From positions 1,302,001 through 1,366,000 of the forward strand of contig JAJHTX010000005.1 of NCBI GenBank assembly GCA_032164295.1: 64,000 nucleotides of DNA, given 5' to 3'. Positions 12,291-62,653 of the stretch are shown in pieces. Position numbers and translations under genes: made by a program. The notes under the pieces were generated by a model, which saw nothing but the letters and a program-made list of their open reading frames with translations, made no database searches and had not been told where the DNA came from. Within the stretch, counting starts at the first letter, position 1; each line of letters starts with the position of its first letter. The DNA is from Inonotus obliquus (taxonomy: Eukaryota; Basidiomycota; Agaricomycetes; Hymenochaetales; Hymenochaetaceae).

Positions 12291-14096
12291 AATAAGAGCA
12301 GACAATCCCAGAGGCACGCCTCGGTTCTCGTTCACAATCCATATCATACAACAGACTAGCAACGCAGCCATCAGCTACCGCACTAGAACTAAATAATTTA
12401 AAGACGTCAGATATCAGTTGAAATCGCCAATATCCTCGAAGGGAGCTCACAAATCAATGTCCAGGTGAATGACAGAGATCCCATCACTGGAAAGATCTTC
12501 CTTCAGTCTTCCAATAAACCACGAACTGCGGGCGAGAGTTCCGACAATCCATACTGCCTGCCGTCGAGGGTAAGCCTTGTGAGTATTGCTCGTAAGGATG
12601 TTCGTGACATACCATTTGTGATCCTCGGCATGAGTTCATCTGATGCCTAATAAGCTTTAATCCATCGCGTATAGGCTCCTCGAAGCACTCGGCGAGCTCA
12701 TCCCTGCATTAGGAGAGGAAGGTTAGCAAGAATATGTGTATAGAACAAGAGTTGATACAGAGAGAGGTCCTACCCGGTAAGTCTTAGCAATCCCCTTTGG
12801 ATCCCAAGATCAGCATTGTTCTCCGTCCTCCCGCCGACGCGTAACCAATATGCATGCTGAGCATCGCTAAATTTCCATTTAACAGCGGGTTCAAATGAAT
12901 CCTTTACAATTTCGTCTAAGATCTCTTGATTGTCATAGCTAGACCCCCGTAGCTTTCCTATCCTAAGGGATTAACTTATTACAAATACATTCCCAATACA
13001 TGACGTACGCTTTAGTACTCCTCGCATGCGCACGTTTATAGACAAGGAACCATTGAAGGAATCTGGCGAAGACGTTAAGTATACGGAATTCAGTGATGAG
13101 GCGATCCCTCATGTGACATACGTCTCGGCGAAACCATCTCCTTCAAACGCGCTGGCTTAGCTTGATCGAGCTCATAAGACATCACCTGCAGAGTGTCTTC
13201 ACCTCCATCAACAAGAATGAAACGATTTGATGGCTGAGAATAACGAAATGTATAAGTACGACATGAGGTGGTAATTTGAAACTCTTACCGGAATGCCACC
13301 GGGAATCTGACCATCAAGCAAGCACGCAAAGGTAGATGCGTCGCTTTGGTTTACGAAAGATATACGAGCTCGGTCGTAGATGACGTTGATGAGCCCTCCA
13401 GATATTGCTGCTTGGTGTATGCGATGTTGTGAAACATTATCCCACCCATTCGGGAGACTGAAAACAAAATGCCTTTGATGCATTACTTGTTTCCACATTT
13501 CTTCCCCATCAACATAATGTTGCTTGATGAACTGGATGGTTTCGTTGTACAGATAACGCAGGAAATCGCCCATGACTTCTATTGCCGTTTTAAGTGGGGG
13601 AAGAATAGCAGGACGGGGGTCGTCCGGGTCCATCTCCAAATCATAAGGGCTTAGATGCATGATGAACCTTCATTTTAGGATATAGTAACTTTAGCAAATG
13701 CGATGTCATACGGCCTTGATCATACCTCTCGACCTTGACCCAGTTTTCGATCTCAGAGTCGCTCATTACCGTTTCCGTCGCCGCTGACTGGCCCGCGGCC
13801 GTTAAATTCCCATGTCTATCGTAATACATGACTGACGGGATCCTATTGCTTGGCGAGCTTTGATCAGTGAAGCTAAAGTTACAAGTCGAATGTTAGACTT
13901 GGTTCATACACAATTGACCCGCTGAAACAGACCTATTCACCGCCTGAATCTCAGGAGGTCGATCACGAGCAAGTAGAGCGAAAGAGATGGAGCTACTCGT
14001 TGATCCTATATCGAAACCCATGATGATTCCCGGAGCTCCAGATTCGGATTTCTGACTTGGACTGCAATGGCTGGTATGAGGATGGCTTCGCCCCAT
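12291..14096 (-). CDS. H1: divergent, apparently truncated Hsp70-like (HSPA12-type) protein
   Basis: Minus-strand exons match the other Hsp70-like copies in order: phosphate-1 region GFDIGSTSSSISFA, RIPSVMYYD, MHLSPYDLEMD, GDFLRYLYNET, the helix FVFSLPNGWDN, SLSINVRMRGVLK, LRGSSYDN, LAECFEEP, VWIVGTLARSS and SSAVADGC. The frame then meets TGA at 12291-12293, so about 180 C-terminal residues found in its relatives are missing or lie beyond an unseen intron. The ATP-binding loops are degraded: the second phosphate loop reads DGGEDTLQ instead of DLGGGTLD, and the first has Ser for the usual Thr/Gly. No divergent partner gene lies upstream. It may be a pseudo-ATPase or a decaying gene. Confidence 0.6.
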
Positions 14097-14970
14097 GGTC
14101 GCAGTAGAGAAGAGGGTAGATTAGTATGCATCTGTCGTAGATGCTCGTTGAACTCATGCTGGTCGCAAGGAGCATGGGAAGGAGGTGTTGGCTGGAGAAT
14201 GCGTGGCCACCGGAATGCATTACACGTGACCGTAGTAGAAGCACATTCACAGATTCACTTGAAAAATCGTCTACGATTCCAGCGCTCCGCTGTTCCACTC
14301 CGACTTTGTCTTCTGGCTGGAACCGCAGCGATGGTGGCAGCTGAGCAAAGCAGAGAGTGGCAATCAAGTCAGTCACCCAAAACACTGTCGTAACGAGCAT
14401 CATGTGATGTGACACATCCATTCAAATTCTTTCGTTTCAACTTGTGAAAACTTGAAGGAAACTTGAAAGTTAGCGACTGCACTCTAAGAGCCTTCGGCTC
14501 GTACACTAATTCATTGAACGACTAGCTCATGGAGAACATCTGATCTACTGTAGTGGACCATCTGGGACTTTTCTATTATTGCAGTGATCAAAAATTGCCT
14601 CGTCTACCTCAGGAGTCAGGATCCGATGTTTGTCCTTTCTTCTTGATCGGAAGTAATACGCTCGCTAGAAAATTGGGCATGGCCAGTATGTCTCCAATTC
14701 AGCGCTCCGGGCGGCACGACTTGAACTTTTTAACGGGACCCGACTGACCGCTGCCGCTTCTTCGACGGTGCATCGGGGTACAAAGAAGTGGTTTGCCGTG
14801 TAAAGACCAGGTCCCATGATATGCCTAGAATCCGCTCTGCGCTGCTTTTTTATTCACGCTTTTGGCGGATGGATAACCGAATGAATGGATTTTACCAACC
14901 TATGCTCTTCCCAACTTCCATGATGTTCTCCTTATAAGAGGTCCAAACGTTCGTGTCCAGGTCTCTGGCC
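14097..14970. other. Spacer upstream of H1 and of the carboxylesterase
   Basis: No partner gene of the P family is recognisable here, unlike upstream of H2-H9. The short frames opposite the H1 first exon are antisense shadows. The part just before 14971 should hold the esterase promoter. Confidence 0.45.
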
Positions 14971-18000: not shown

Positions 18001-20448
18001 TCACTCATAAAGTATCGCAGCAGGTCCGCTAAAGGAAGTAATCAACAAAAGGAAATGAACATTGGGACGTAAGCACGTACTATTTCGTTTGTTTCTAGAG
18101 TGATAGGCAACGTCAGCAAACGCCAACGAATCGTGATCAGCAAGACGCACTTTCTCAGTCCACTTGATTCTAGCCTGCAGCTCCGTCATACCAAACATGA
18201 TTTCGACATCATACATCAGGTCTCTGAATAACGTGCCCTTATGAGACTGGCTGCTTGACTTTTTATATAGCTTGGAAAGATCAGCCTTGATCGTGCATGC
18301 CATTTCAAACGCATCTGCTACCAGACTGCCAATTAGTCGGAACCCTGATCGAAGACACAATTTGACGTGCCTTTATTCTCATCATGCCACGTTGGTACTG
18401 TTCCTTCGCCACAAAAACTGAAAATTTCGACCTCGATGAATTTCGTGCCTTTGCTATTCTCAATCCTATTGCGGTATGATCTGCTGAAATGTTGTGTCTC
18501 CTGCACCTCTTTTTCCTAACTTGCACAGAACCCAAATAAATATTGTAATCCACACTCAACATGGTCAGGACTCGCCTTCTCAGCAATGATGCTAAACATC
18601 CCGGGCAACAGCACATCTCCATTCAAGCTAGTATACTGCAGATGCTTGCGTCTCTGGTGCTCTGCATCAAGGGGGTTATAGAATGTGCTACAGACAACAC
18701 CATACGTTTTTCTGGTGACGCGGCTCGACACCGTAGCTCCTAGACTGTACAGCACATTGCCATGTGCAACCGCCTTTCCCCTGACAGAGTTCAACCAAAA
18801 CTGGATTATGGGTAGTCCCGACAAAGAGAGAATAACAACATACAGATCAATTGATGAAGGACGACGAACATCAATCCCATCTCGCCTGAGAACTGTTTCC
18901 AGTTTCCCGTATAGATAATCACTCGAAGCAAATCCTCCAACGAGCCAAACGGGCTATATCAATATTCAGAGCCAGCTTCTGGAGGAGCATGATTGACTTT
19001 TACCATTGGCCTGCCACCGCATCCTGCTATCTGGTCCTTGATTGACTTCAGCGCCTCGGAAACCGAGTGCTCAAAGCACTCTACCATGTCTTTACTAAAA
19101 TTCAGCCGGAGCACGAGTAAAAATATTGCCCATTTCATGTAACAACGGTCATACCCATCAATCCGTAAACGACCTTGACGAATGCCAAGCTTTGTGTTGA
19201 CTTCATCGCGATTTCCCACCCGGAGCCACGATGCACTTGACGCATCCTTGAATTGTCTCTTGGTGGAACTTTCAAATTGATCATTGATCAATTCGTCCAA
19301 GATTTCATTATTTGTGTATTGTGATCCTCGTAATAGAGCTGTGACGACGCGTCAGGTCCAAAGGCAAAGGGGGCATATGGGTTACTCACTTTGCAGGAGC
19401 TTCCTTGCCCTAATGTTGACAAAAATAGACCCAGCAAACCGACCTTACAGATGCATCAGCATAATTACAGAAATAGTGATAGAGCTGACAAACAGTCAGA
19501 TGAGGTGAGTTCCTTGAGGCGCAACGGTGAAGAGTTCCCGACTTCATAGGATGTCATATCTAGCGTGCCGCCTCCAAGATCAGCAATCATGAAGCGGAAG
19601 CCTTTCTATTTACGGGGGGATATTCAATGAATTAGGAGTGACGATGCTGTGAAAACGAGGTCGCTCACTTGAAGGGTTGGAGGACAGAAGCCACCAGCAA
19701 GGCAGGATAAGGCACTAGCTTCGCCTTCGGAGACAAAACTTATCTTTGAGAGTGCAGCTGCAAGATCATTCACGAGTCCACCGTGCACAGCAGCCTCTCG
19801 CATACGCTGCTGTGGCAGGCCCATCCATCCATTCGGATGACTCAACACAAACTTAATGCGATCCTTGACCTTGCTTAGCAGTTCATTGCTATCTAAGTGA
19901 TGACTTCTAATGAAAGTCGTAGTCTCCGAATATAGGTAGCGAAGGAAATCGCCCAGAACTTCAACCGTACTCTTCATTGGAGGCAAGCTACCGAGATCTA
20001 GACCATGAGTATCGAGCGCCATACCCGATGGTCTTAGATGTGTCTTGAAACTTGATACGCAGAATTAGAATCGGAGTCCCCTCAGACTGGGAGCAAAAGA
20101 AACCTCACTATTTGACCTTGTACCAGCCTCCACATTCAGCATCATAAACAACGTTGTCGGACACAGCTGTTGCGCCGGCTGCTCTCAGCGTTCCGCTTTT
20201 ATCATAATACATAGTTGAGGGTATCTTGCTGTCACCGGTCGACTGGTCTGCAAACCTGACATACTGTCAGAAGGTGAATACTGACAATGTTGACTACCTT
20301 ACCTCGTCACCGACTGGACCTCAGGTATCTCTCCTGGTCTTAGGAAAGCATAACAGACACCGCTGAACGTGGTACCAACGTCGATGCCTATTATGAGCTC
20401 ATGTTGTCCGCTATGAGGACGTAGAGCTAGGGCGCGAGGTATGCTCAT
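18001..20448 (-). CDS. H2: Hsp70-like ATPase, HSPA12 type, type I
   Basis: About a dozen minus-strand exons. Actin-like ATPase signatures: phosphate-1 GIDVGTTFSGVCYAF, phosphate-2 MIADLGGGTLDMTSYEV and adenosine segment PVWLVGGFASSDYL. There is no Hsp70 substrate-binding domain. The C-terminus is the beta-rich end typical of HSPA12-like fungal proteins (VEIMFGMTELQARIKW, then a last exon GPAAILYE). The start is the ATG for MSIPRAL (20448); the frame is open further upstream but without another ATG. One intron uses a GC donor (AAG|GCGAGT, at 18575). A broken partner gene begins 191 bp away on the other strand. I see no frameshift or internal stop in the exons. Substrate and role unknown. Confidence 0.8.
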
Positions 20449-20638
20449 GGTCCGTGCCGCAACAGGAGAAGAAGATGGTTCGAGGAGTCTGAATCTGGGT
20501 TCAAGTGACCATGGGCGTGGTAAAAAGAAGCCTCCCTCCTTAAGGTCCTGATTAGTTAGGGCGCTTAAGCTTGTGCGATATGCAAGGGAACGCCCATCAG
20601 CTGAGGCTGCGTGGATTAGTTCAGGCGTTGTGGGCCAT
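20449..20638. promoter_or_regulatory. Short bidirectional promoter, H2/P2
   Basis: 190 bp between two outward-facing start codons, without a clear TATA box. The same gap is 163 bp for H3/P3 and 184 bp for H4/P4, with closely similar sequence. Confidence 0.45.
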
Positions 20639-20960
20639 ATGAACTTTCTTCACTCAGCTATCACTCTTATTCTCAACATACTCTTTCCATTGAGACGCTT
20701 CTACGAGCCAGTAACATGCGTAGAATGCTTGATAACATGCTGAGACGGAGACAGCAGCGAGGGCGGAAACCACGCGAGAACGGGCATGCCTGCTGACGAA
20801 AAAATGAGCAGTAAACGTCGTCGGATTTTGCCGACAGTTCCTCACGGAGCACTCCATGCCGACAACGTCGACCGCCTTTCTCAAGACAAACTCGACGAGT
20901 GTTCAGAATCGGACGCTATCAGGCACTTTTTTCTAGAGGACGACTGGACGCAGAATTTGG
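20639..20960 (+). pseudogene. P2: truncated copy of the partner gene
   Basis: Starts with the intact type I N-terminus (MNFLHS, hydrophobic segment ILNILFPLRRFYEP) and contains GALHADNV and QDKLDECSESDAI as in P4. Compared with P4 it has an internal deletion of about 45 nt before the DDWT motif, then breaks off after LEDDWTQNL, where the sequence runs straight into a carboxylesterase fragment. The conserved C-terminal region (RWRALTYKH to the end) is absent. Confidence 0.75.
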
Positions 20961-20973
20961 TAAGTACTAGTGA

Positions 20974-21256
20974 TATGACGAACAAGGCAAGCCGTTTGCA
21001 CGTCTCTAGTAGTAGAAAATCTAGGATACACTAGTCTGGGACTTGCCAAGTCTGTACCATTGCCAGTGAGTTCCACTCGAGGTGAAGTTCTACTTATCGT
21101 TTTCCGAAATAATCAACTTGTAATGTCGGGAATAGACACTCCTGAATATGAGCAACGAGATGATTGGAGCAACGCTGAACACGCAATTATGGGAACCAGC
21201 GGTCCGACCGCCAGGTAGTTTTGACGAGGAGAGGGCTTCAGCAAAGGTCTCTTCTG
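20974..21256 (+). pseudogene. Carboxylesterase fragment (copy of about 16,163-16,440)
   Basis: Nearly co-linear with the middle of the esterase gene, including an intron and the exon coding [19 protein letters not shown], here with point changes and stops (for example a stretch reading as [17 protein letters not shown]). It is cut off at both ends. It is a footprint of tandem duplication, not a gene. Confidence 0.8.
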
Positions 21257-21467: not shown

Positions 21468-23930
21468 TCACTTCTCGTCCTCGTAAAATATCGTCGCAGG
21501 CCCGCTAAAGGAAGTAATTGACATCAACAATCCATTTGCGTGCATATAAGCACATACTATTTCGTTTCTCCCTGATGAGCCAGAGATCATCAGTAATTAC
21601 AGAAGAGCCATGACCGCTGGCCAGACTCACGTTCTCAATCCATTTGATCCTGGCTTGTAGCTCCGTCGAACCAAACATGATTTCAACTTCATAACTCAGC
21701 ATCCTGAATACCCTACCATCATAAGTGTGGGTTTTTGAAGTACGATACAGCCTTGAGAGATCGGCCTTAATCGTGCATGCGATAGTGAATACGTCTGTAT
21801 CCAAACCGTCAATCAGATGGAAGTCCGATTAACGACACAAACTGGCGTGCCTTCATTCTCATCGTGCCACATCGGTGCTGGTCCTCCATCACAAAAGCTG
21901 TAAATCACTTCCTCGAAGCTCGCAGACTTGAGATTATCAATCTCACGGTAATACGGCCGATTGAATCTCTGTGTCTCCTGCACCTCTTTGTTCTAATTTG
22001 CAGATAGCCGAGTGATTATAACAAGTCACACTCGAAATATAATAAACTCGCCTTCTCAACAATGACGTCAAATATCCCAGGCATCCTCACGTCGCCACTA
22101 AAGTCTACAAATCGCAGATGTCCACGTCTGCAATGTTCTGGATCAAAGTTATCATAGGGTACGTGGCAGACGGTGCCAAATGTGCTCCTTGTAACACGGC
22201 TGGATACTGTGTCTCCTAGACTATACAAGATGTTGCCACGGGCAACAGCCTTTGCCCTGCCAGGGTTGTGTAGAAAATGGATCAGGAACAGTCCTGACAA
22301 AGAGGAGCTTATGACATACAGCAGATCGATTGGCGATGGACGACGAACATCAATTCCATCTCGCTTGAGTACTATTTCCAGCCTCCGGAATAGATAATCA
22401 CTCGATGCGAATCCTCCAACAAGCCAAACGGGCTGTATCGAAATTTAGATCCGGATCCGGATTCTGGAGGAGCACGATTGACATCTTACCATTGGTCTGC
22501 CACCACATCTTTCTATCTGATCCCTGATTGACTTCAGCGCCTCGGAAACCGAGTGCTCAAAGCAATCTACCATGTCTTTACTAGAATTCAGCCGGAGCAC
22601 GAGTAAAACAAGATTGCCCATGTCATGTAACAACGGTCATACCCGTCAATCCGTAGACGACCTCGTCGAATGCCAAGCTTTGTGTTGGTTTCATCGCGAT
22701 TTCCGACATGGAGCCACGACGCATTCGAAGGATCCTTGAATTGTTTCTTAATTGGGCCCTCAAAGTGATCATCGGTCAGCTCGTCCAGGATTTCATTATT
22801 ATCGTAATGTGTTCCTCGTAATAAAGCTGCGACAATAAGTTGAATTCAATGGCGAACAGCGAATGGATCGCGTACTTTGGAGCAGCTTTCTTGCCTTAAT
22901 GTTAACAAAAATAGAACCAGCAAACCGACCTTACGTATGTTTCAGAATCACTACAAAAGCAGTAACGGAGCTGACGAACAGTCGGACGAGGTAAGCTCTT
23001 TGAGGCGCAGCGGTGAAGAGTTTGCGATTTCATAGGATGTCATATCTAGCGTACCGCCTCCAAGGTCGGCAATTATGAAACGGAAACCTTTCTATAAACG
23101 GGAGATATTCAATGAATCAGGCGATACAATGCAGTAGAGTGAACCCTCACTTCGAGAGTAGGAGGGCAGAAGCCACTAGCAAGGCATGATAACGCGCTAG
23201 CTTCACCTTCGGATACAAAACTGATCTTTGAGCGTGCAGCCGCAAGATCTTTCACTAGCCCGCCATGCACAGCAGCCTCTCGCATACATTGCTGTGGCAT
23301 GCCCACCCATCCATTCGGATGGCTCAGCACAAAATTGATGCGGCCTATGACCATATTAAGCAACTCATTGCTGTCCAACTGACGTTCGCTGATATAATTG
23401 ATGGTCTCCGAATACAGATAGTGAAGGAAATCGCCAAAAACATCAATCGCAGTCTTCATTGGAGGCAAGCTACCGAGATCTAGACCATGAGTATCGAGCA
23501 CCATACCTGATGGTCTCAGATGTGTCTTGAAGCTTGATAAACTTATTCAGAATCGGAGCCACGTCGGTCTGGGAGCAAAAGAAACCTCACTATTTAACCT
23601 TGTACCAGCCTCCACTTTCAGCATCATAAACAGTGTTGTCTGACACAGCTGTCGCACCGGCTGCTCTCAACGTTCCGCTTTTATCATAGTACAAAATTGA
23701 AGGTATGTTGCTGTCACTGATCTTCTGATCTGTAAACCTGGCATGTCATCAGAAGATGAATAGCGGCAATGTTGACTACCTTACTCCTGCACCTGATGGA
23801 TCTCAGGGATCTCTCCTGGTCTAAGGAAAGCATAACAGACACCACTGAACGTTGTACCAACGTCGATGCCTATTATGAGCTCATGTTGTCCGCTATGAGG
23901 ACGTAGAGTTAGGGCGCGAGGTATGCTCAT
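21468..23930 (-). CDS. H3: Hsp70-like ATPase, HSPA12 type, type I
   Basis: Very close to H2 and H4 along its whole length and in the 3' flank. It carries GIDVGTTFSGVCYA, LGGGTLDM and PVWLVGGFASSDYLF, the FNG-type exon VRMPGIFDVIVEK and a C-terminal exon GPATIFYEDEK (stop 21468-21470). The GC donor after the GIFDVIVEK exon (AAG|GCGAGT, around 22050) is shared with H2. I chose ATG 23930 (MSIPRAL). Exon 3 reads YLYSETINYISERQLDSNELL where its relatives have THH or SHHxDSNELL, so the surface helix region varies. No breaks seen. The partner gene 164 bp upstream is decayed. Confidence 0.8.
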
Positions 23931-24093: not shown

Positions 24094-24800
24094 ATGAACT
24101 TTATTCACTCAACTATCGCTCTAATTCTCAACATACTCTTTCCATTGAGACGCTTCTACAAGCCAGTAACATGCGTAGAATGCTTGATGACAAGCCGAGA
24201 AGGAGACAGCAACGAGGGCGGAAACCACGCGAGCACGGGCATGCCTGCTGACAGAACACGGCCAATGGACACATCTAAGCACCCCCTACGATCGCCAAGA
24301 TTGGAGGCTTCCGCAAGCGCAAGGAGGGACCACATTTATATATTAAACCTAAAATTATAAACACCCATTGATGGGCCAGGGACCACGGCGTATGCGTCGC
24401 GAACTATACAGTGTCTGACTGTTTCTTTGAAGCACCTGGCGCCCAAGCTTATATCTAGGAAATTTCTTCGGTGGCAGAGAAGTGATTTTGCCGACAGTTC
24501 AGCAAGCGCCTCACGGAGCACTTCATGCGGACAATGTCGACCAAAGCAAACGCTTTTTTCAAGATAGAGTCGACGAGTGTTCAGAATTGGACGCAATCGG
24601 GCAATGCCAATTTCTCAACCAGAAGATCAACAACACGGTCTTGTCCTAAGTGGACGACTGGACGGCGGTTGAAAGACCTCGTTGTATTATCCAACTCGAA
24701 GCGTGAAAAGTATCTGCAAAAGGTCATCGGAGCTACCCTTTCCACCTCAATAAGTTGGAGGCCTCATCTCTACCAACAGGCGAGCTGCAGGACTTGGTAA
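24094..24800 (+). pseudogene. P3: decayed copy of the partner gene
   Basis: Aligns with P4 from the N-terminal hydrophobic segment (ILNILFPLRRFYKP) through GDSNEGGNHAS, QSKRFFQD and SKREKYLQKVIGATLS. Lesions relative to P4: TTA to TAA at 24647-24649 in the SLVDDW motif, a deletion removing about 20 nt between the DDWT and RRLKDL segments, a further frame change near 24,750, and loss of the whole C-terminal region. It ends where an esterase fragment begins. Confidence 0.8.
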
Positions 24801-24802
24801 CT

Positions 24803-25200
24803 GATATGGCAAACATGCATGGTAAGCCGTCTGTACGTCTAGTAGGAAACCTAGGATGTCCTCAGGGCCCTGGCTGGATTTCTACATCAACTTCATAACT
24901 TATATGGACCCTGGATGCGAGTGTTTATACCTCGATAAATGGACCATGAACTCAAGACCTCTCTCGAAGCATCCTGGCCAACGTTCACTTCTCAAGGGAA
25001 GCAAATACTGCAACTGATGAGGGACATCATCACAGCTATCGGTGACGGTATGTCAGAAATGACCATAATGCCAAGGAAATGTGACTGCCGCCGGCTTATT
25101 CTACCCTACCCAAGATTACAGAATCATAATGACGAACTTCTTGAATATACCCAAGAGCATATGCGTATCAGAATTGGGAACACCGAGTAGTCGATGGGAG
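24803..25200 (+). pseudogene. Carboxylesterase 3' fragment
   Basis: Begins with a short piece like esterase 16,163-16,220, then jumps to the equivalent of 17,026-17,300 ([27 protein letters not shown]), and continues into sequence like 17,480-17,530 downstream of the esterase. An internal deletion of about 0.8 kb and several substitutions make it non-functional. Confidence 0.78.
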
Positions 25201-25602: not shown

Positions 25603-28054
25603 TCACTTCTCGTCCTCGTAAAATATCGTCGCAGGCCCGCTAAAGGAAGTAATTGACATCAACAATCCATTTGCATGCACATAAGCACATACTATTTCGT
25701 TTCTCCCTAATGGGCCAGAGATCATCAGTAATTGAATTCAAAAGGGTCATGACCGCTGGCCAGACTCACGTTCTCAACCCACTTGATCCTGGCTTGTAGC
25801 TCCGTCGAACCAAACATGATTTCAACTTCATATTCCAGCAACCTAAATACCCCGCCATCATATGCGTTCATGATGGTTGAGTTACGATATAGCTTTGAAA
25901 GATTAGCCTTGATCGTGCAGGCAATATCGAATGATTCTGTATCCGGGCCACCTATCAGATGGGCGCTCAATTAAGGTATAAACTAACCTTCATTCTCATC
26001 ATGCCACTTAGGCACTGGTCCTTCACCACAAAAGTAGTAAATCTCGTCCTCGAAGCTCGCAGATTTACGATTCTTGACCTCCCTAACATAGAAATGACTG
26101 AATTGTTGTGTCTCCTGCACTTCTCGGTCCTAACTTGCACAAAACCCAGTAACCATAATAATATACACATGAGATGGATTGGACTTGCCTTCTCAACAAT
26201 GACGTCAAACATTCCAGGCATCATCACATCGCCACTATGGTCCGTGTACTGCAGGTATTCTCGTCTCCGGTGCTCTGGATCAAACTTCCGATAGAGTATG
26301 CTGCAGACGACACCGTAAGTGTTTCTTGTGACACGGCTCGATACCGTAGGTACAAGGCTGTTCAGTACGTTGCCATGGGAAACCGCCTTTGCCCTAACCG
26401 AAACCAGATTATGACCAGCACCGATAAAGATGGACTTGTGACATACAGATCAATCGATGACGGACGACAGACATTAATCCCATCTCGTCCGAGGACCTCG
26501 CGCAGCATAGCGAATAGATATTCACTGGAGGCAAAACCGCCAGAAAGCCAAACGGGCTGTGTCGAGATTCAGATCCGGCTTCAGGAGGAGCTCGACTGAC
26601 ATCTCACCATTGCCCTACCACCGCACTTTGCTATCTGGTTCTTGATTGACTCCAGAGCCTCGGAAACCGAGTGTTCAAAGCACTTCACCATGTCTTTACT
26701 ATAGCGTTAGCTGGTGCATGAGTAAAATGCTGTTGGCCGAGTCATACAAGACCAAACCCACCCATCTATCTTTAGACGACCCTGTCGAATGCCGAGCCTT
26801 GCGTTATTTTCATCTCGATTTCCGACACGGAGCCACGATGCATTCGATGCGTCCTTGAATTGTCTCTTGGTTGGGCCTTCAAAGTGGAGATTAATCAGCT
26901 CGTCCAGGATTTCCTTGTTATCGTAATGTGATCCTTGTAATAAAGCTGCGACGATAAGTGGAATTCAACGGCGAACGGTGCAAATGGATAGCATACTTTG
27001 GAGTAGCTTCCTCGCTCTAATGTTAACGAAAATCGAACCAGCAAACCGACCTTATGTACGTTTCAGCTTGTACAAATACAGTAACGGAGATGACAAACAG
27101 TCAGACGAGGTAAGCTCTCTGAGGCGCAACGGTGAAGAGTTCGCGACTTCATAGGATGTCATGTCTAGCGTACCACCTCCAAGGTCGGCAATTATGAAAC
27201 GGAAACCTTTCTATACACGGAAGAGATTCAATGAGTCAGCAGAGACGAGGCTGTGAAAACATGATCACTCACTTCGAGAGTAGGAGGGCAGAAGCCGCCA
27301 GCAAGGCATGATAATGCGCTAGCTTCACCTTCTGAGACAAAACTAATCTTTGAGCGTGCAGCCGCAAGATCTTTCACGAGTCCGCCGTGTACAGCAGCTT
27401 CTCGCATACGCTGCTGTGGCAGACCCATCCATCCATTCGGATGGCTCAGCACAAACTTGATGCGACCCGTGACCTTGCTTAGCAGATCATTGCTATCCGA
27501 ATGATGGATCTTAATGAACCTGGTGGTCTCCGAATACAGATATCTAAGGAAATCGCCCAGAACATCAACCACAGTCTTCATTGGAGGCAAGGTACCGAGA
27601 TCTAGGCCGTGAGTATTGATTGGAATATCAGATGGCCTAAGATGCATCTTGAAGCTTGATATCCTGCATCAGAATTGGATTCATTCGGTCTGAAAGCAAG
27701 AGAAACCGCACTATTCGACCTTGTACCAGCCTTCACTTTCAGCATCATAAGCAATGTTGTCTAACATAGCTGTTGCACCGGCTGCCCTCAACTTTCCGCC
27801 TTTATCATAGTACATAATTGAGGGTATCTTGTTGTCACCGGCGGTCGTCTGATCTGTAAACCTGACACGTTGTCAGGAGATGAATAATGACAATGTTGAC
27901 TACCTTACTCCTGCACCTGCTGCACCTCAGGGATCTCTCCTGGTCTAAGGAAAGCATAACAGACACCACTGAACGTTGTGCCAACGTCGATGCCTATTAT
28001 GAGCTCATGTTGGCCACTGTGGGGACGCAGAGCTAGGGCGCGAGGTATGTTCAT
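25603..28054 (-). CDS. H4: Hsp70-like ATPase, HSPA12 type, type I
   Basis: Same exon plan as H2 and H3. Signatures: GIDVGTTFSGVCYA, LGGGTLDM, and an adenosine segment reading VWLSGGFASSEYL, where the Val of the LVGG motif has become Ser. The start is MNIPRAL at 28054; the frame is open upstream (a non-ATG extension of about 30 residues). A GC donor (AAG|GCAAGT, near 26187) follows the GMFDVIVEK exon. The last exon encodes GPATIFYEDEK, stop 25603-25605. Divergent from the complete partner gene P4, 185 bp away: the first pair of the array in which both members look functional. Confidence 0.82.
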
Positions 28055-28238: not shown

Positions 28239-29702
28239 ATGAACCTTCTTCACTCAGCTATCGCTCTAATTCTCAACATACTCTTTCCATTGAGACGCTT
28301 CTACGAGCCAGTAAGGTGCGTAGTGCATGCGTAGAATGTTTGACGACAAGCTGAGGCGGAGACAGCAACGAGGACGCAGGCACGGACATGCCCGCTGACA
28401 GAACGCGACTAATGGACACATCCAACCACCCATACCAACAATCGCCAAGACTGAAGACTTCCGCGAGAGGGAACGGGCGCGGTATCTTTGTACGAGCAAA
28501 GTAAGGCGAATGCATCGCGAGATATACAAACATTGATCAGTTCCCTGAAGCAACTGGCGTCAGAGCTTGAATCTCGGAAATATCTTTGGTGGCAGAGACG
28601 GGATTGAGCAGCGCGGAGAGGACGAAAAAACGAGCAGTGAACATCGTCGGAATTTGCCGACAGGCCAGCAAGTTCAAGGAGCACTCCATGCCGACAACAT
28701 CGACCAAAGCAAACGCCTCTTTCAAGACAAACTCGACGAGTGTTCAGAATCGGACGTCATCAGGCAATGCCAGTTTCTCAACGAGAAGATCAACAACACA
28801 GTCTTGTCCTTAGTGGACGACTGGACGGAGAATTCGTCTGCTTCACGGCGGTTGAAAGGCCTTGGCATATTATCCGACTCGAAGCGTGAAAAGTATCTGC
28901 AAAAGGTCATCGGAGCTACGCTTTCCACCTCAATCAAGTCGAAAGCCTCTTCTCCACCATCAGGCGAGCTGCAGGACTTGGTAACTGATGCCCTTCAGTC
29001 CTCGGCCGTGGATTATATCTCCTGGATCGTCTCGAGCACATTCAGTCCAGGAATTTCTTCCTCAACAAATGGTGAAATGCATGGGATATTTCTGAGTATG
29101 CTCTCCCAAGGTAAGCCTTCAGTTTTGGCGACATGGTGTGTAAAGAACAACCAAACGTCTGTAGAGCCCCTAGCGACTGCCCTCCGTTGGAGAGCTCTAA
29201 CTTACAAACACTCAACCAAGGAACCGAAGACATTGGCCATTGAATATCGAAAAGTACTTTCGAGTGACTTCCGCCACATATTCCGCCTTGCAGGAGAGGG
29301 CAGTTCGTCGAAATTCCTTACACGAATCCCGGACGCAGTAAGGGACAGCGAGATTATCGAGTCTACGTTGGAACTCTCGGAAATACTCAAGACAAAACTC
29401 TTCTCCGTCCATCTTGACGTTTATGCCATACGACCAGGTGAACCGTTTCGGGAAGACGACATGGAGTTCGACTCGGGTAATAAAGATGCGATCGGAAATC
29501 ACCCTGTCTTGTGTACGCTCGAAATAGGGCTTCGGGAACTATCACCTCAAACTGGATCTGGCAGGATTCTCCTGAAGCCAAAGGTGGTATTGGAGGTATG
29601 TGGAACTCATGCCAACCAAACTGATATTTTCTGACTCGTGAAACCCAGAAACCCGCCGTCCGTGACAAGAAGCTGGCCAAGCAACTCGATCGTGTTGTGT
29701 GA
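28239..29702 (+). CDS. P4: membrane-anchored partner protein, type I (unknown family)
   Basis: Exon 1 (28239-28310) encodes MNLLHSAIALILNILFPLRRFYEP, a short signal-anchor. The next small exons (GDSNEDAGTDM..., then a Trp/Arg-rich segment) are uncertain. The main exon up to 29110 is open and carries RLFQDKLDECSESDVI, FLNEKINNTVLSLVDDW, KREKYLQKVIGATLS and the helix SAVDYISWIVSSTF. Exon 29165-29595 carries EPLATALRWRALTYKH, IIESTLELSEILKTKLFSVHLDVYA and CTLEIGLREL; a last exon 29649-29702 ends KKLAKQLDRVV. I know no named domain. Predicted helical, with a single N-terminal membrane segment. Exon 2-3 joins are unresolved; the rest is well supported by similarity to P6-P9. Confidence 0.7.
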
Positions 29703-30430: not shown

Positions 30431-30489
30431 ATGTGATGCAAGCCTTATCGACCATGTGTATGACAGGGTCAGAAATGTATCTAATATAA

Positions 30490-34474: not shown

Positions 34475-35109
34475 ATGGGACTTCTGCGCTCAATCATCGC
34501 TCTAGTTCTCATCGGGCTATTATTACAAACTATTGACGTGAGTTGAACTGCTGAAAGTAGGGCGAGTCACTGAGTCTGGGACAATAGCGAAGCCGAAGTC
34601 AACGGGGACACCATGACTGCCGACATGAGTTACGAGACACCAGCTGGATCACCTCACTCACCGGTCCTTGAGCCACAAGCAAGACGACGGTCGAGCAGAA
34701 GTAGCCGAGCCAGTGGCGAGGCAGCGTTGAATCGGTATGGCGAGTTGATCTCTTCAATAAGCAAGGAGATTGACCTTCTCCACGAGAACAGAAACAGCCG
34801 GTCTTGGTATCAATTACTGGGTGTTGAGCATTTCCAGAAATTTACAGGAAGAAGTACCACGAGCAGGCAAGACGGTGAAAGTCATCGGGACTTGCCGAAT
34901 CTTCGGAAAATAAGAAATATCACGTGTCCAGCTCCACCTCTATCATGGATGCGCATGTGCATGGGATTGTGGGTGTGCACCTATTACGACCATGGAAGTG
35001 GTCGAAGCAAGGAGCAAGAGTGATAGGGGCCAATGCCTTCAACACGGAACCTCCGACTTCATTCATACTAGTCTCTGCCGCTCCAAAATCTGTTGACGCG
35101 GCAGTATAG
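34475..35109 (+). pseudogene. P5: broken copy of the partner gene
   Basis: Homologous to P6 from ATG 34475 (MGLLRSIIALVL). A 14-nt deletion in exon 1, relative to P6, shifts the frame so that exon 2 no longer reads TADMSYETPAGSPHSPV from the membrane segment. The central segment (GELISSISKEIDLL, KFTGRSTTSR, SHRDLPNL) is recognisable, but the sequence then diverges and the whole conserved C-terminal region is missing. A frame from ATG 34613 could still give a 136-residue soluble fragment. Confidence 0.72.
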
Positions 35110-39422: not shown

Positions 39423-39830
39423 TTGTCCGTACTCGGCGTGGCTTGCCTGTACCTGAGCATCTCGAGTTGTTTTACATATCTAATGCAACTACCAGAGGGT
39501 GCTGTATGCTTTCCCCCCTTCGTGTATCTCCGAAATCACGTCTCGCTGTCGTTCATCGTTTATGTGGAATCATGTAGGAGAATGATCAATGTTATATAAT
39601 AGTATTGTTTCGGGATATAAGTCAAAGAGTAAGAAATGGAATACTGCCAGCCGCAAAGGAGGTGACAAGCAATAGTGTACTACTTTAGCGAACCTGGAAG
39701 GTGTAAGGATCGCATTAGCTATTGTTAGTCGCAGAAGTTCAATTGAGCCAGTCAATCTTAACGGGTCCGCTGAGGTGGTGGGAGGACGGATGAGACGCCC
39801 GCGTTACGAGTCATTGAATTGTAAAACTTA
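39423..39830. other. Convergent spacer between P6 and H7
   Basis: 3' flanks of two convergent genes; no supported gene. Confidence 0.5.
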
Positions 39831-51656: not shown

Positions 51657-53174
51657 TCAGGTAAGCAAGACCTCCGCCTTGATTAAGATTTTCCGTTTTC
51701 CTGTGCCATCTGTTCCTTGCAATCCCAACTTTGTCGTACATTTCACTGATCCCTCATCCACTTTGTCCGCATGAATCATCGATTGCTCATCATACGGCTT
51801 CTCCTGATCAGCTACGAAAACCTCGATATTCTGGGAGAAGATTGTCGTCTTTATCGACTTGGCCAATATAGCCGCCTCTTCAACGATTTTGTCTATCTTT
51901 TCAAGGAGTCTGGGGTTGTCCGAGAGCGACGGTGGTTCTTCTCCAGCCATCACGAAGACATGAAGGAGTCCTCTCTGGATGATTTCCTTGGTTTGCGCGA
52001 TTGCCGCCTTGTAGGATTCGAGTCCTAGTTCGTGTTTGTGAACCAAGGCTCTCCAGTGCAGACAAACTTGAGGTTCGTTGTCTATTTGCGGTGTCACCTT
52101 TGTCAATCAGCCCCTATCTGGAAGGAATGTGCTTACCTCCGTCCGATTTAATAGCACGATAAACTCTTTCAAGATTTTCAGATTCCCGGATTTCTGCGTC
52201 CCGCCGTCCATTCCTTTGTAATGGCCAAATATCCGACACGAACTTGGCCATAGTTTCGTCATTCTCGGTTGGTTTATATGCGTTTTCTGCTCGAAATCGA
52301 TTCCAACACCCCGCCATTTCCTTATCTACATGCAATAACGATCAGTGTAATCAATCGTGCTCTCCACCGAACAATGACGAACCGTGGTCCTCCATATGCT
52401 CAATTATCTCATTTATCTCTTCATTCATCCGTATCCTCAACCCGAAGAGCATTGGCTTCATCGCTAGGTATACGCAAGAAATTGACCAAACATCCAGACC
52501 GTTTCGAATGATGCGGTTAGTAGCTTTTGGCCCTCCCGTTCCTCCCTTGGCACTAGCTAATTCTTCAGATAGTCTGTCCCCCATGACATTCCGTACGAAC
52601 GCGGCGACTGTGTTACCCTCAAATTCCGTGTTCTGGGCTCCTTCGCTGTCAGTTACGGTCACGTTGATACGTTCGTGCGTACGACTCTTCGCCTTGATTA
52701 GATCGCGCGAAAGAGTGTTTATGTGATAATTGAGAGTCCCGCAGGCTGCCATGAGCTCGTTCTCGGAGAATTCATCATTCCTTTCCAGGAAAGTCCGCCT
52801 TGCAAACTCACTCCCGTAAATACCGTAAATATCGTTCCTCTGTTCCTTTCGTGGTGCATGCTCGGACACGATGCTGATAGCTGAAGATTCCCTGTCACCG
52901 TCTCGTTTACGTAAACTTTGACGGTCTGGGTCTGGAACTGATATCGTTAGGGTATTCAGCATCACAAGCACGAATACTTAAGGACCCCACCTTCGTGATA
53001 CTGCGGATCAACACTGCTGGGATCCGAAGCGTCCAGAGCAGCCCCTTCAGCCTCTGACGCTGAGGGGCATTCATTTGGTGTGATTGCTCTCAGAAATCGA
53101 GCTACATAACACACCAGAACGTACGCCAAATAGCAGAACACCCCAAACGATGAGAGGTAGACCACTTTCTGCAT
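51657..53174 (-). CDS. P8: membrane-anchored partner protein, type II (unknown family)
   Basis: Four exons (53174-52991, 52937-52383, 52325-52137, 52081-51657) close in phase and give 450 residues, the shortest intact type II copy. The N-terminus MQKVVYLSSFGVFCYLAYVL is a transmembrane segment starting almost at residue 1. A short linker follows, then FARRTFLERNDEFSENEL, LNYHINTLSRDLI, RLSEELASAKGGTGGP, WSISCVYLAMKPMLFG, EEINEIIEHM, EMAGCWNRFR, VCLHWRALVHKHELGLESY, VEEAAILAKSIKTTIFSQNIEVFVA and CTTKLGLQG. The intron positions and phases equal those of P9. Divergent from H8 (310 bp gap). The conserved half is nearly identical to P9 in places, while the N-terminal and linker parts differ. Confidence 0.82.
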
Positions 53175-53484: not shown

Positions 53485-55780
53485 ATGTCTTCAGATTACA
53501 TTCAGACTCTGCTAACCAAGCCCTACTCTGGCGAAACCAGATCCATAGTAATCGGTATTGATGTTGGAACAACCTTCAGCGGCGTTGCATATGCTCTTCT
53601 TTACCCTGGAGAGGTTCCAAAAAAAATAAATCCTGTGACCAAGTAGGTCTCCTGTAATCAGCATAAAGTATGTTGCCTCAGTTCAAATAGGTTCTCGAAT
53701 AAGGAAGCCTCGGATAACAAGATTCCATCAATACTGTATTATACGAAGAATGGAGTTCCGATAGCCATTGGACAGGCCGCCGCTACGCTATCAAACAAAG
53801 CACGTCATGAGGCTTCCAGTGGGCAATGGTTCAAAGTCGAATAGTGCGTACAATTTGCTATCTATATTTCTATGGTTCCAATCTTCTTTCAAATACAGCT
53901 TCAAGTTGCATTTTCGTCCCAACGATCACAATATGAGAAAAGACGTTCTGAGGCCTGGGAAGCTTCCACTAGGCAAGACCGCCGAACAGGTCATGGGAGA
54001 TTTTCTTCGCTACCTTGTCCAGGAAGCTGGGGTGTACATCTCAAGTGCCCACGGTGTAGATACATGGAACCAAGTTAAGGATGAAGCGATAATTGTACTT
54101 GGACATCCCAATGGGTGGACCGGTTCCTGCCAACAACGTTACCGAACCAGTGCAGTCTTGGGTGGCCTTATTCCCGATACTGATGAAGGTCACAAGCGGA
54201 TGAAATTGGTCACTGAAGGCGAGGCAAGTGCGCTAGCCTGTTTATCTAGCTGGCGTCATGGTAGTGGACCAGATATGCTCAAAGTATGTTTAACTTAATT
54301 ATTTGGTTGATTAACTTTTACAAACACAGAGTACCTAGCCAGGCTTTCGTTTTATGATCGTAGATGCGGGAGGGGGTACCGTTGACATGACAACTTTTGA
54401 AGTGGACGAAACGTCACCCCTGAAGCTCAAAGAGTGTACAGCACCAGATTGTAAGTTGCAAGGTTTCATGAGCTTCACCAAAATGGTAGTTAATTAATCT
54501 TTAAAGGTCAGTATGCCGGCTCTGTCCTTGTAAATATGAGGGCAAAGGATCTGCTCAAAAGTGAGGTATCAAACTACATTCGCAAGCACTATAACTCAAT
54601 AGTCTCGGACCTTCTAAACAGGGCTCTTAGCCAATTCTGAATACGATAACGAGAAGCGTATCGATCAGCTTATGAATAAATTTGAAAATACCACTAAGAA
54701 AACATTTGACGGCATAGACGAAAGCTATGATTTGGAGATAGGAAATCGTGACGAAGATAATGAGGAATTGGGTATTTCTGATGGTTATCTTGAGTTATCA
54801 CGGTATGTGTACAAAAGCTCCTGGGATTCCAAGCTGACAAAGAGCATAGCGAAGACCTGGCTGAATGCTTCAGGCCTTCTGTGTCTCAGACAATCGAATC
54901 TATCTTGGGTCAATATTCGGCAAGCCACAGTAAAAAGGGCACAGTGGTATACTTTTTCTATTAGTATCACTTCCCCTTTACTGAGACGGTTTAAAGCCCA
55001 TATGGCTCGTTGGAGGCTTGGGTAAAAGCAAATACCTTTTGAAAGAGCTCCAAAAAGCGCTTGAAGGGACAGAAATATCAACTCCAGAATGGGCACTCAT
55101 CTTTGGATCCAATGCTGTTGCAAAGGGCGCAGTTTTACACCATCTCGACCACCCAGTTAAGGCTCGGATCTGTCGAAGGACCTATGGGACATCCTGCCAT
55201 ACCTTGTTTGGCCTGTCTCTGATTGCGGATCACAGCATTCATGAGATTGTTGAGCACTCAGAGAGTTTCCCAGTGATAGGTCCGATATTTGCTCCTATTG
55301 TTGAAAAGGTAACAAATACTTCCTCTCAGTAAATGATACAGACTGATGCTAGTCCCAGGGTGTGTTGATAGAGGAAGAGAAGCCATTCGTTTGTAGCTTC
55401 TGGAAGCCTACCTTAGGCGGGAATGTGCTGCGTGTCAGCGGAGAACTGCTATGCTATGACGGGGACCTCCCAGTTCCATTCTGGTACGAAGATAATAAAG
55501 GTACACCAAATTGAATCTTACTGTGTGCGTGAATCACTAATTCAACTATGTTTACTTAGACAAATTCAAGACTATTGGCCATGTGGAAGCCGAAATTCCT
55601 CCCATTGCTGTCCAGGATGAAACTGATTTGACTCTTGGGCGCCAAAAGTTTGACATTGAGCTTAAATTTGGGAAGACGGAGGTTGAATCAAGGATTAGAT
55701 GGGAAGAAAAAGTTCGTTGCTTCTCTCTCGCATTCATATTTCTTTATGCTAATTATTCGCTCTAGGGGAAAATTAAATAG
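53485..55780 (+). CDS. H8: Hsp70-like ATPase, HSPA12 type, type II
   Basis: Eleven exons (53485-53642, 53691-53843, 53899-54283, 54339-54450, 54507-54560, 54631-54802, 54850-54946, 54997-55308, 55359-55500, 55560-55711, 55766-55780) close in phase and give 583 residues. GIDVGTTFSGVAYAL is phosphate-1; MIVDAGGGTVDMTTFEV phosphate-2; PIWLVGGLGKSKYLLKEL the adenosine loop, where Phe-Gly-Ser of its relatives is Leu-Gly-Lys. It lacks the intron that H7 and H9 have before the KAVANGAV-like segment (here SNAVAKGAV, read through in one exon). The C-terminus is FDIELKFGKTEVESRIRW, then GKIK. No Hsp70 substrate-binding domain, no signal peptide. All donors are GT. Confidence 0.88.
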
Positions 55781-57140: not shown

Positions 57141-57144
57141 GTGT

Positions 57145-57265: not shown

Positions 57266-57371
57266 AAAAAACGCGAAAGTAGTTGAAGGTAATTATTCTT
57301 GAAGTGGGTGTCTGGAAGAAGCTTACTTCCGCGGACCCGCACTCACAAAGCACGGTGCATCCTTGATACCT

Positions 57372-57746: not shown

Positions 57747-57898
57747 AAGCCTACATCGTCTGGAATTGTCGGCTTCGACCTCAAACTATGGCTCCTGTAT
57801 CAATTGGTATTGACTTTGCGCAAATCTTGGCTGCAGAGCGAGCTTTGATCAAGTGAGAGTGAGAAAGGTTGACCTTGAGCTTCACATACTTAAGTTAG

Positions 57899-58219: not shown

Positions 58220-59949
58220 TCAGGTAAACAAGACCTCCGCCTTGATTAAGATCTTCCGTTTTCCTGTGCCATCCGTTGCTTGCAATCCCAACTTCGTCGT
58301 ACATTTCACTGATCCTTCATCCACTTTGTCCGCAGAAATCATAGATTGCTTATCATATGGCTTCTCCCGCTCAGCCACGAAAACCTCGATGTTCTGGGAG
58401 AAGATTGTCGTTTTTATCCACTTCGCCAATATGGCCGCTTCCTCGACGATTTTATCTACCAATTCAACGAGGTTGGGGTTGTCCGAGAACGACGGTGGTT
58501 CTTCTCCAGCCATCACGAAGACACGAAGGAGTCCTCTCTTGATAATTTCCTTGGTTTGCGCGATTGCTGCCTTGTAGGATTCGAGTCTGAGTTCGTGTTT
58601 GTGAACCAAGGCTCTCCAGTGCAGACAAACTTGAAGTTCGTTGTCTATTTGTGGTGTCCCCTTTATCAATCAGCTCTTATCTTGAAGGAATGTACTTACC
58701 TCCGTCCGATCGAATAGCACGATAAACTGTCTCAAGAATTTCAGATTCCCGGATTTCTGCGTCCCACCGTCCATTCTGCAATGACCAGACATCTGACAGG
58801 AACATGGACATGGTTTCGTCATCGTCATTCGGTTTACGCGTGTTTTTCTCTCGAAATCGATTCCAGCACTCCGCCATTTCCGGCTCTGTGCGTAATAATC
58901 AGTGCAATCAGTGCTCCTTAACGGGATCGCAACGAACCATGGACGTTCATATGCTCTATTATCTCATTTATCTCTTCATCCGTCCGTACCCTCAACCCGA
59001 AGAGCAAGGGCTTCATCGCTAGGTATACGCAAGAGATTGACCAAGCATCCAGACCGTCTCGAATGATGTGGTTAATGGCTGTTGGCCCTCCCGTTCCTCC
59101 CTTGGCGCTGGCCAGTTCTTCCGACAGTCTGTCTCCTAGAATCGCCTGAACAAATTTGGCGATTCCGTCATCCTGAGATTCCGGGTTCAGGGTGCTTTCG
59201 CCGCTGGTTACGTTATGACGTCCACGCATGCGGTTCTTCGCCATAATCAGGTGGCCCGAAAGGTGGTTTATGCGGCCAGTGAGAACCTTACAGGCTGCTA
59301 TGAGCTCGTTATCGGAATACTCGTCGTCCTTCTCCAGGAAGGTTCTTCTTGCAAGGTCATTTCCGAATCTACCGTCCCTCTTTGGACTTGATGGAACATC
59401 ATTGGTGGATGGGAGGTTCAGTTCTTCGTCATATTTACCGTTGCTTCCATCTTTCCTTCCACCGTCTTCCGAGCTTTCGTCTTCATCTAAAACGTGCTTT
59501 CGTGTTTCACTTTCGTCTTCGGGCTGAGGTAAAGGAGGAAGGTCCAGTTGGGTTCTGCTGCCCGGATCTGGAATGATTAAGCCGATCATATCTTCAAATA
59601 CATCTACAGGAAGACACCCACCTTCGTGATGAAGTCGGTCGAGTTGCCTGTCGCTCTTTTGATTAAAAGCACTTCTATCACTCGTGGATGGTTGGCGCCC
59701 ATTTAGAGCTTGATGCGACCGTCGTTCTTCGCGTACAATGTGCTTTGTACTACTGGTATCCACGATATGGGGTTGTGACTCCGACCACGCTCCCGTGCTT
59801 CTGGTTTTAGCAGAACTTAATCCTCGAGACTCCAGGTCATCCGCGTCCCCCTTGACCCTATTTCCGGGGTGGCACCTGAAGATGGAGTGTACTGCATACC
59901 ATAGGTGCACTATGCAATATTCGCAAGCAACTAAGAATCCAATCCACAT
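58220..59949 (-). CDS. P9: membrane-anchored partner protein, type II (unknown family)
   Basis: Four exons (59949-59622, 59567-58938, 58885-58700, 58644-58220) close in phase and give 522 residues. The N-terminus MWIGFLVACEYCIVHLWYAV is a membrane segment beginning at residue 1, followed by a polar linker longer than in P8 with an acidic stretch (DEDESSEDGG). Conserved part: LARRTFLEKDDEYSDNEL, LTGRINHLSGHLI, ILGDRLSEELASAKGGTGGP, WSISCVYLAMKPLLFG, EEINEIIEHM, EMAECWNRFRE, HWRALVHKHELRLESYKAA, EEAAILAKWIKTTIFSQ and CTTKLGLQ. Intron phases (1, 1, 1) match P8. Divergent from H9. The charged linker differs strongly from P8 while the conserved half does not, suggesting different constraints on the two halves. 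Confidence 0.83.
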
Positions 59950-60299
59950 CTCTTGCACTGTTAGGTTGATAGCCGGTGAAAGGTGAAGATAAGTGGCATT
60001 CTCACCTTTTGCCTTTCGACCAACGGGGTCGAATCAAACCTCGTAGTGAGGCGAGGGCAATTTTATACACGGCTTTGAAGATCTTTTGTGTTGATTCTGT
60101 CCGCCGCTTTGTATCCCTGAGACAGCCCGTTCGGGCGTGTCTTGCGTTAATGAAATCGATGCCTTCGTGTTCCTTTCACAGGGCACAGAAGGAATGTCGC
60201 TCTTACAGAACGTCACATATCTCGCCCACTACATAAGAGTCCTCAACCTGCAAGGTTGCTTCAAATAGACCTCCCGCTCATTTGATTCATTAATTCTCT
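59950..60299. promoter_or_regulatory. Bidirectional promoter region P9/H9
   Basis: 350 bp between outward-facing start codons; TTTTATACA at 60061-60069 is about 112 nt from the P9 start and 231 nt from the H9 start. Confidence 0.45.
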
Positions 60300-62653
60300 A
60301 TGCCTTCAGATTATATCCGGACTCTTCAAGACAAGCGATTTTCTGGATCAAACTCCGCCGTGGTTATTGGCATCGATGTTGGAACCACCTTCAGCGGTGT
60401 ATCCTACGCTCTGCTCTATCCCGGAGAGGTCCCGAGACTTCGTCCTGTGACCAGGTAGGTCTCCGGACAGTAGATTGTTTCCTACTTCAATATTTGGCAG
60501 GTTCTCAGATCAGGAGGTCTCAAACAACAAGATCCCATCAATAATCTATTATGCTGAGGATGGAGCTCCGAAAGCTATCGGACAGGCAACTACACTACCC
60601 AAAGTACGCCAGGAGGCGAACAGAAAGCGTTGGTTCAAAGCCGAACAGTGCGTGCAATTCGCTATCTATTTCTCTCTTGTTCTTTCATCGACCAATCTTC
60701 TTTCAAATTTAGCTTCAAAATGCACCTTCGTCCCAGCGGTCAGAAATTGGAAACAAACGGTCTGAAGCTCGGGGAGCTTCCACCAAGCAAGTCTGCTGAA
60801 CAGGTCATGGGGGATTTCCTACGCTACCTCTTTCAGGAGACTGGGAAGTATATTTCGAATGCACACGGTGTAGATACGTGGAACCAAGTCAAGGACGAAC
60901 CGACATTCATTCTTGGTCATCCCAATGGATGGAGCGGTTTCTGCCAGCAACGCTATCGAACCAGTGCGGTCTTGGGTGGTCTTGTTCCCAACACTGATGA
61001 GGGCCACAAGCAGATTAAATTCGTCACGGAAGGTGAAGCAAGCGCTCTAGCCTGTTTATCTGGTGGGCTAGGACCGAATGTCCTCAGAGTACGTCGAATA
61101 GATCCTTTACAAGATGATCATCTGCAAACATAATGCGTCCAGCGTGGTTTCCGATTCATGATTGCGGATGCTGGAGGAGGTACCGTGGACTTGACAACTT
61201 TTGAAGTAGTTGGAACGTCACCCCTGCAGCTCAAAGAGTGTGTAGCACCGGACTGTAGGCTCTACGGATTATCTCTATCACTCTACACTGACGCTTTGAA
61301 AGGCCGATTCGCGGGTGCTGTGTTCGTAAACATGCATGCAAGAGCTCTACTCCGAAGTAGGTTTGCCATTCATTGTTTCAAGTGCCACGACTTAGAAGAC
61401 CTTTGCCTAGAGCGGTTGGCCAACTCAAAATACGACGACGACGAAGTTATCGATGATCTCGTGAGTGAAGAGTTCGAAGATTCCACCAAGAAGCAGTTCA
61501 CTGGTAAAGACGACGGCTTGCTAATAGTCGGTGGACGTCGCGAAGAGGATGAGGAATTGGGTATTTCTGGTGGATTCCTTACGTTGCGCCGGTACGTAGA
61601 AAGTATCTCGGGAAGCTCCTGATTAACGAAGAGCATAGCGAGGACCTGGCCGAATGCTTTAAATTTTCCGTATCCCAAACCGTTGATTCTATTTTAGGCC
61701 AATTTTCAGTGAGCCGCAGTGAAGGGGGCACGACGGTATTTACCTTCATTGTCATCTTTTCTCTTTTGTTAAGATTATTTGAAAGCCCGTTTGGCTCGTC
61801 GGAGGCTTTGGATCTAGTGAATATCTTCTGAAGGAGCTCCGCAGCGTATTTGAATTTAATGGAACGACAATCCAGACTCCGGATACAAACTTGTGCGCCT
61901 GTCTCGTTCATGGCTCTGCAGAATGACGTCTCACTTCTTTACCAGGTCCAAGGCTGTTGCAAATGGCGCAGTACTACATTATCTTGACGAGGCAGTTGTC
62001 GCACGAGTTTGCCCAACGACTTACGGAACGGTGTGCTACACCCGATATAATTCTTCACGGTCCGAACACCTCAGCAGGCCCGAACTCGTTGAAAGTGAAC
62101 CGTATGGGACGTTTATTGGTCCGATATTCGATCCCATCGCCGAGAAGGCGAGTTACCCGATGCTCAAGCTTTAATGATAGATACTAATGCTGGCTTCCAG
62201 GGATCATCCATCGATGTGGGAAAGACGTACTCTTGTAGCTACTGGAGGAACGCTTCGACGGCGAGCGCGACGCGTGTCAACGCGGAACTGCTGAGCTATG
62301 ACGGCGACCTTCCGGCTCCATACTGGTACAATGAAAACAAGGGTACTCAAAAGAACACCATCTTGGCTGAGCGCTAATCTGACCGTGCTTGATTAGATAA
62401 ATTCAAGACCATTTTCCGACTGGAGGCTGACCTTTCTCCCATGCTACTTCGGAGCAGCGGAAATTTGGAAACCTCTCTGTTTGGCATGTTCTTTGGTATA
62501 CGATCTTCTCGGCGCTTAGAATTTGATATCGAGCTGAAATTTGGGACGACCGAGGTCGAGGCGAGAATTAGATGGGAAGAAAATGTTCGTCAAATGTCTT
62601 CTGTAATCTTGCTTCGATGCGCTGATAGCTCATTCCAGGGAGTCGTGAAATAG
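60300..62653 (+). CDS. H9: Hsp70-like ATPase, HSPA12 type, type II
   Basis: Twelve exons (60300-60454, 60501-60647, 60713-61088, 61143-61254, 61303-61356, 61411-61591, 61639-61735, 61786-61892, 61946-62147, 62201-62342, 62397-62584, 62639-62653) close in phase and give 591 residues. Phosphate-1 GIDVGTTFSGVSYA at residues 24-37; phosphate-2 MIADAGGGTVDLTTFEV from about residue 232; adenosine segment PVWLVGGFGSSEYLLKEL from residue 375; then SKAVANGAVLHYLD. The C-terminal domain ends FDIELKFGTTEVEARIRW and GVVK. The exon-9 donor is GC (AAG|GCGAGT, 62148). This is the cleanest gene model of the family and served to guide the others. The fold is that of actin/Hsp70 ATPases without a canonical substrate-binding domain; client unknown. 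Confidence 0.9.

Follow-up and report, generated by a model that had tools for sequence, protein, structure and literature searches.

A head-to-head gene pair for an Hsp70-superfamily ATPase and a candidate partner protein, locally expanded in Inonotus obliquus

Description

This report concerns a 64,000-nucleotide stretch of the Inonotus obliquus genome (assembly GCA_032164295.1, contig JAJHTX010000005.1, positions 1302001-1366000; hereafter the window, with coordinates counted from its first letter) that holds nine genes for Hsp70-like ATPases, H1 to H9, eight of them standing head-to-head with a gene of a second family, P, or with its remnant. A further pair, H10/P10, lies outside this array on the same contig, and we consider it fairly probable that H and P form an old two-gene module of the Agaricomycetes, an ATPase with a dedicated partner protein, that has been expanded locally in the window.

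The whole assembly (36.07 Mb, 30 contigs) was searched with H9 and with the domain of P9. H9 yielded at least 54 matches, 52 of them in the window and two from a single gene at 2.063 Mb on the same contig, 0.7 Mb away, which is the sole H locus found outside the window (H10), and the 11 matches of the P9 domain all fall inside the window. H10 is arranged head-to-head with a gene for a 497-amino-acid protein, P10, whose C-terminal part resembles P, with predicted starts 207 bp apart. When a profile of 52 P10-type proteins, array-type rows being excluded from it, was compared (HHalign) with one of five P proteins from the window, the result was 99.6% (E 1.3e-23, 264 columns), and comparison of the P and H profiles gave 0.2%. 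The domain part of P10 shares 94% identity with a Sanghuangporus baumii protein and 88% with an S. weigelae protein, which places the fungus in or near Sanghuangporus (Hymenochaetaceae).

Database searches, in which only candidates with the most words in common were scored, returned 698 H matches at E <= 0.001 among the scored proteins, 173 P10-type matches and two array-type P matches, both from S. baumii, where the array-type P gene A7U60_g7649 lies on the same contig as the H gene A7U60_g7653. When the best 120 of the 698 H matches and the best 120 of the 173 P10-type matches were paired by species name and equal contig size, H and P10-type genes were found together on a contig in 15 of 19 assemblies (0.94 expected), and in 12 of 15 outside the Hymenochaetaceae; a common contig does not amount to adjacency, and orientation is known in I. 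obliquus alone. This count leaves out Schizophyllum commune, Agaricus bisporus, S. baumii and a second Boletus edulis assembly, for which the H and the P10 rows do not stem from the same assembly or strain. In S. commune there are relatives of both genes (rows P0064 and P0151). Locus tags are consecutive in Hohenbuehelia (HGRIS_003877/003878) and in Astraeus (ID866_9008/9009, on a contig of 5,780 bases); in S. weigelae some 200 numbers separate the P10-type tag from the array H tags, and in Phellopilus the contig bears ten H genes. Because H10 and P10 are head-to-head and contigs are shared in most assemblies, the pair is older than the array and probably occurs widely among Agaricomycetes, and the presence of a more distant pair elsewhere in the same genome suggests a long-standing working partnership between the two proteins. 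An earlier interpretation of the window from its letters (the sequence-only reading) had proposed asking whether P homologues elsewhere lie beside H, and the module survived that check, which was run in part. Long proteins from Imleria badia (row P0023) and Pisolithus tinctorius (row P0020) each contain two large H-like stretches and are either genuine double ATPases or adjacent H genes fused by the annotation.

Within the window, open-frame self-comparison revealed two coding families, each repeated, on opposite strands, and spliced protein-to-DNA alignment, in which the last short exon or exons mostly fall outside the models, recovered the nine Hsp70-like genes of the sequence-only reading, with largely common intron positions. 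H1-H7 are on the minus strand and H8-H9 on the plus strand; the models of H2-H9 comprise 580-592 codons, last short exon(s) excluded, and H2-H4 and H6-H9 are open as far as modelled. A frameshift apparent in H6 vanishes under another splice choice. The alignment of the degenerate H1 spans 490 residues, and on its divergent side H1 has a carboxylesterase gene (PF00135; 14971-17322, plus strand) and no P partner. Divergent from each of H2-H9 stands a P gene (P4, P6-P9) or what is left of one (P2, P3, P5), and the gaps between predicted start codons of pairs 2-9 are 163-350 bp, agreeing with the 160-350 bp given previously, where an upstream ATG would shrink the gap to 72 and 69 bp in pairs 5 and 6, respectively. 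P4, P7, P8 and P9 run uninterrupted from start to stop, and the in-frame stop of P6 is avoided only with an alternative 96-nt intron. H5 (32.0-34.3 kb) and P5 (34.5-35.0 kb) are both decaying. The features are:

12280..14096, minus: H1, degenerate Hsp70-like gene that has lost its catalytic motifs and has no P partner; 3' end uncertain
18151..20448, minus: H2, Hsp70-like ATPase, intact motifs; last short exon not in model
20625..21033, plus: P2 remnant (frameshift); predicted start 20639, 190 bp from H2
21631..23930, minus: H3, Hsp70-like ATPase; last short exon not in model
24094..24821, plus: P3 remnant (several frameshifts); 163 bp from H3
25770..28054, minus: H4, Hsp70-like ATPase; last short exon not in model
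28239..29702, plus: P4, intact partner gene, 436 amino acids; 184 bp from H4
32014..34305, minus: H5, Hsp70-like gene, single nonsense codon, at codon 489
34475..34972, plus: P5 remnant (N-terminal part); 169 bp from H5
35484..37797, minus: H6, Hsp70-like ATPase; last short exon not in model
37964..39422, plus: P6, partner gene interrupted by an in-frame stop (38900-38902) unless alternative splicing removes it; 166 bp from H6
39739..42242, minus: H7, Hsp70-like ATPase
42579..44511, plus: P7, intact partner gene, 591 amino acids; 336 bp from H7
51657..53174, minus: P8, intact partner gene, 448 amino acids; 310 bp from H8
53485..55711, plus: H8, Hsp70-like ATPase; last short exon not in model
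58220..59949, minus: P9, intact partner gene, 522 amino acids; 350 bp from H9
60300..62742, plus: H9, Hsp70-like ATPase

H has the actin-like nucleotide-binding domain fold and belongs to the known Hsp70 superfamily. Its catalytic motifs are retained in H2-H10 and lost in H1, ten positions being conserved in 45 or all of 46 homologues, and the Pfam HSP70 (PF00012) cut-off was reached by none of 11 scanned H homologues (best 15.7 versus 20.6 bits, row P0013). The model of an H homologue carries a C-terminal beta domain, without a helical lid, at the position of the beta part of the Hsp70 substrate-binding domain (SBD-beta), so that the former statement that H has no substrate-binding domain is not supported. 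In P10 a coiled coil is combined with a conserved helical domain and, at the C terminus, a beta region. The array P proteins share the homologous helical and C-terminal domain and have no coiled coil: their match to P10 starts at an FL..D helix after a long helix, and the part preceding it is variable. An N-terminal hydrophobic segment, earlier ascribed to P as a whole as a membrane segment, stands out clearly in P7 and P8 (Kyte-Doolittle 2.6 and 2.05) and borderline in P9, P4 and P6 (1.53, 1.45 and 1.37). Family libraries returned no family over its cut-off for those P pieces and proteins whose matches were listed with cut-offs, and matches of P to ATG16, WTAP, Fez1 and the like are due to the coiled coil; the precomputed Pfam column names a family for three (P0126, P0129, P0204) of the best 120 of 173 P10-type rows. 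Against PDB sequences the P10 profile gave a best E of 0.042, with stretches within the coiled-coil part, and Foldseek with a P10-type model gave no match at E <= 0.001.

Fragments of the carboxylesterase gene are met again near 21.1-21.3 kb and 25.0-25.2 kb, on the downstream side of P2 and P3, and are block-duplication scars marking breakpoints. Because the duplications carried the pair as a block, the eight pairs are one arrangement copied repeatedly rather than independent cases; the pairing itself, said before to be kept through at least eight duplications in both orientations, is real. A tree of 53 H rows, including 43 chosen database rows of 120 and so giving no measure of copy number per species, groups H10 with rows of many Agaricomycete orders, apart from an H1-H9 clade that also holds Sanghuangporus, Phellopilus (nine array-type rows on one contig), Fomitiporia, Coniferiporia, Phellinidium and Schizopora rows. 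Within this clade H2-H6 and H7-H9 form separate, well-supported groups, and H1 sits on a very long branch with unsure placement. The P tree agrees in setting P4/P6 apart from P7-P9 and S. baumii, its deeper branches being long and partly unresolved. Where synonymous divergence (dS) is unsaturated, the ratio of nonsynonymous (dN) to synonymous divergence is 0.13-0.30 for H and 0.38 and 0.41 for P, whose N-terminal linker is saturated; purifying selection acts on the coding sequence of intact P genes.

Several observations weigh against a dedicated H/P module. P9 as a single query did not find P10 in the genome, so that the link between P and P10 rests on profiles. H and P lie on different contigs in four of the 19 assemblies, and tags are apparently sequential in four and consecutive in only two of them; those of S. 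weigelae and Coniferiporia are non-consecutive, but the H rows there are array-type. In the word-limited search array-type P was not detected in Phellopilus, Fomitiporia or Coniferiporia despite array-type H, and in Phellopilus P was either missed or can be dispensed with by H. There were no H-P fusions among 242 fetched proteins, and no heat-shock elements (paired GAA/TTC) in the intergenic regions of pairs 8, 9 and 10, the only ones scanned. None of five P10-type proteins tested has an N-terminal membrane segment, leaving the membrane-anchored partner proposed at first as a possibility for derived array copies only. Finally, P2 and P3 are broken beside open H2 and H3, as would suit a reading in which the divergent pair is a linked, perhaps co-regulated neighbourhood, with no binding between its products, and the array a passive by-product of segmental duplication. 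The copying of pairs as blocks, with carboxylesterase pieces repeated downstream of P2 and P3, likewise fits that reading, which we nevertheless hold to be rather improbable: the same neighbourhood recurs at the second, more diverged H10/P10 locus, H and P10-type genes share contigs in most other assemblies, and P is under purifying selection.

Two further explanations give P a more specific role. P could be a GrpE-like nucleotide exchange factor, its long coiled coil and C-terminal beta region opening the nucleotide-binding domain of H. GrpE is among the top rows in a second look at structural matches; the Pfam GrpE (PF01025) cut-off was not reached (best E 0.025, in five of 52 P10-type members), and we regard this role as unlikely. 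The array could instead be a fast-turnover recognition or incompatibility set, with H as transducer and a variable, membrane-proximal P as sensor. A lineage-specific expansion with broken copies, a separate expansion in Phellopilus and the rapid N-terminal divergence of P (dN 0.73 over the first 100 aligned codons of P8/P9, dS saturated) speak for such a set; neither a death nor a recognition domain was found, and the same genome has in H10/P10 a lone pair that is more conserved, making such a set very unlikely.

In the two-component module that we favour, H would be an Hsp70-superfamily ATPase made of a nucleotide-binding domain and a lid-less beta domain, and P its dedicated partner, encoded divergently over a short shared promoter region. 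This module is the part of the sequence-only reading that gains from the second head-to-head locus and the shared contigs; general membrane anchoring and H as a bare ATPase fall away. P would bind H via its helical and C-terminal parts, keep it at one location, which would be an oligomer in the case of P10 and a membrane for some array P, and regulate its nucleotide cycle, and thus may position and perhaps gate H, possibly in a GrpE-like manner, as a weak structural hint suggests. The conserved version would be that of H10/P10, with P as a coiled-coil protein, and a second version of the pair would have arisen in the Hymenochaetales line and multiplied here by tandem and inverted duplication; we infer that the coiled coil was lost from P in this array version and that several copies gained the N-terminal hydrophobic segment. 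A more far-reaching proposal, which we hold to be doubtful, would see in P10 and the related array proteins the founding family of a novel class of Hsp70 cofactors. Dedicated to non-canonical Hsp70s and acting in GrpE-like exchange or in tethering, such a cofactor would be encoded head-to-head with its ATPase across the Agaricomycetes, and the array would hold membrane-directed, diversifying versions of it.

Two other genes lie between P7 and P8. One (49073-50852, plus strand) encodes a 519-amino-acid protein with an N-terminal CS (p23-like co-chaperone) domain (21.8 versus the Pfam cut-off of 21.3 bits) and, judged by eye, a C-terminal hydrophobic tail. The other (44846-48390, plus strand) encodes a predicted 1135-amino-acid protein that is serine/proline-rich and apparently disordered, and its 991-amino-acid open frame matched no Pfam family at E <= 1. 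A search of viral contigs with row P0123 gave no match.

Hsp70 chaperones appear among the species-exclusive families of a Hymenochaetales fungus in a passage of PMC11325261, and metazoan Hsp70-12 is treated in part of PMC12692333. In searches of an open-licence paper library, subscription papers and preprints apart, no fungal function or cofactor for these ATPases was found, nor any description of the partner family P or of the H/P pairing. Relatives of H are numerous in mushrooms, as the 698 database proteins indicate, and a conserved divergent partner offers a direct handle on them: one bait-prey pair, testable in mushrooms kept in ordinary laboratories, could reveal the role of these ATPases and show if there is a new class of Hsp70 cofactor.

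Among known systems, canonical Hsp70/Hsp110 proteins (DnaK, BiP, Sse1) are alike in that nucleotide-binding domain and SBD-beta are both covered when the H model is aligned with ATP-state DnaK and Sse1, and differ in the helical lid, which the H model does not have, and in sequence (11-19% identity in the structural matches listed). HSPA12 is a putative label for H; the non-canonical Hsp70s HSPA12A/B would resemble H in having an Hsp70-superfamily nucleotide-binding domain, very low similarity to canonical Hsp70 and about 600 amino acids, whereas H is fungal, forms a multi-copy array and is coupled to a divergent partner gene. GrpE resembles P10-type proteins in the succession of a long helix, further helices and a C-terminal beta part; P differs in its extra helical domain, in finding no sequence-family support for the likeness and, in the array, in having no coiled coil. 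Closest to the array P are the uncharacterised P10-type coiled-coil proteins of Agaricomycetes (173 database matches), which share the homologous domain with them and are set apart by their coiled coil, several of the array copies having an N-terminal hydrophobic segment instead.

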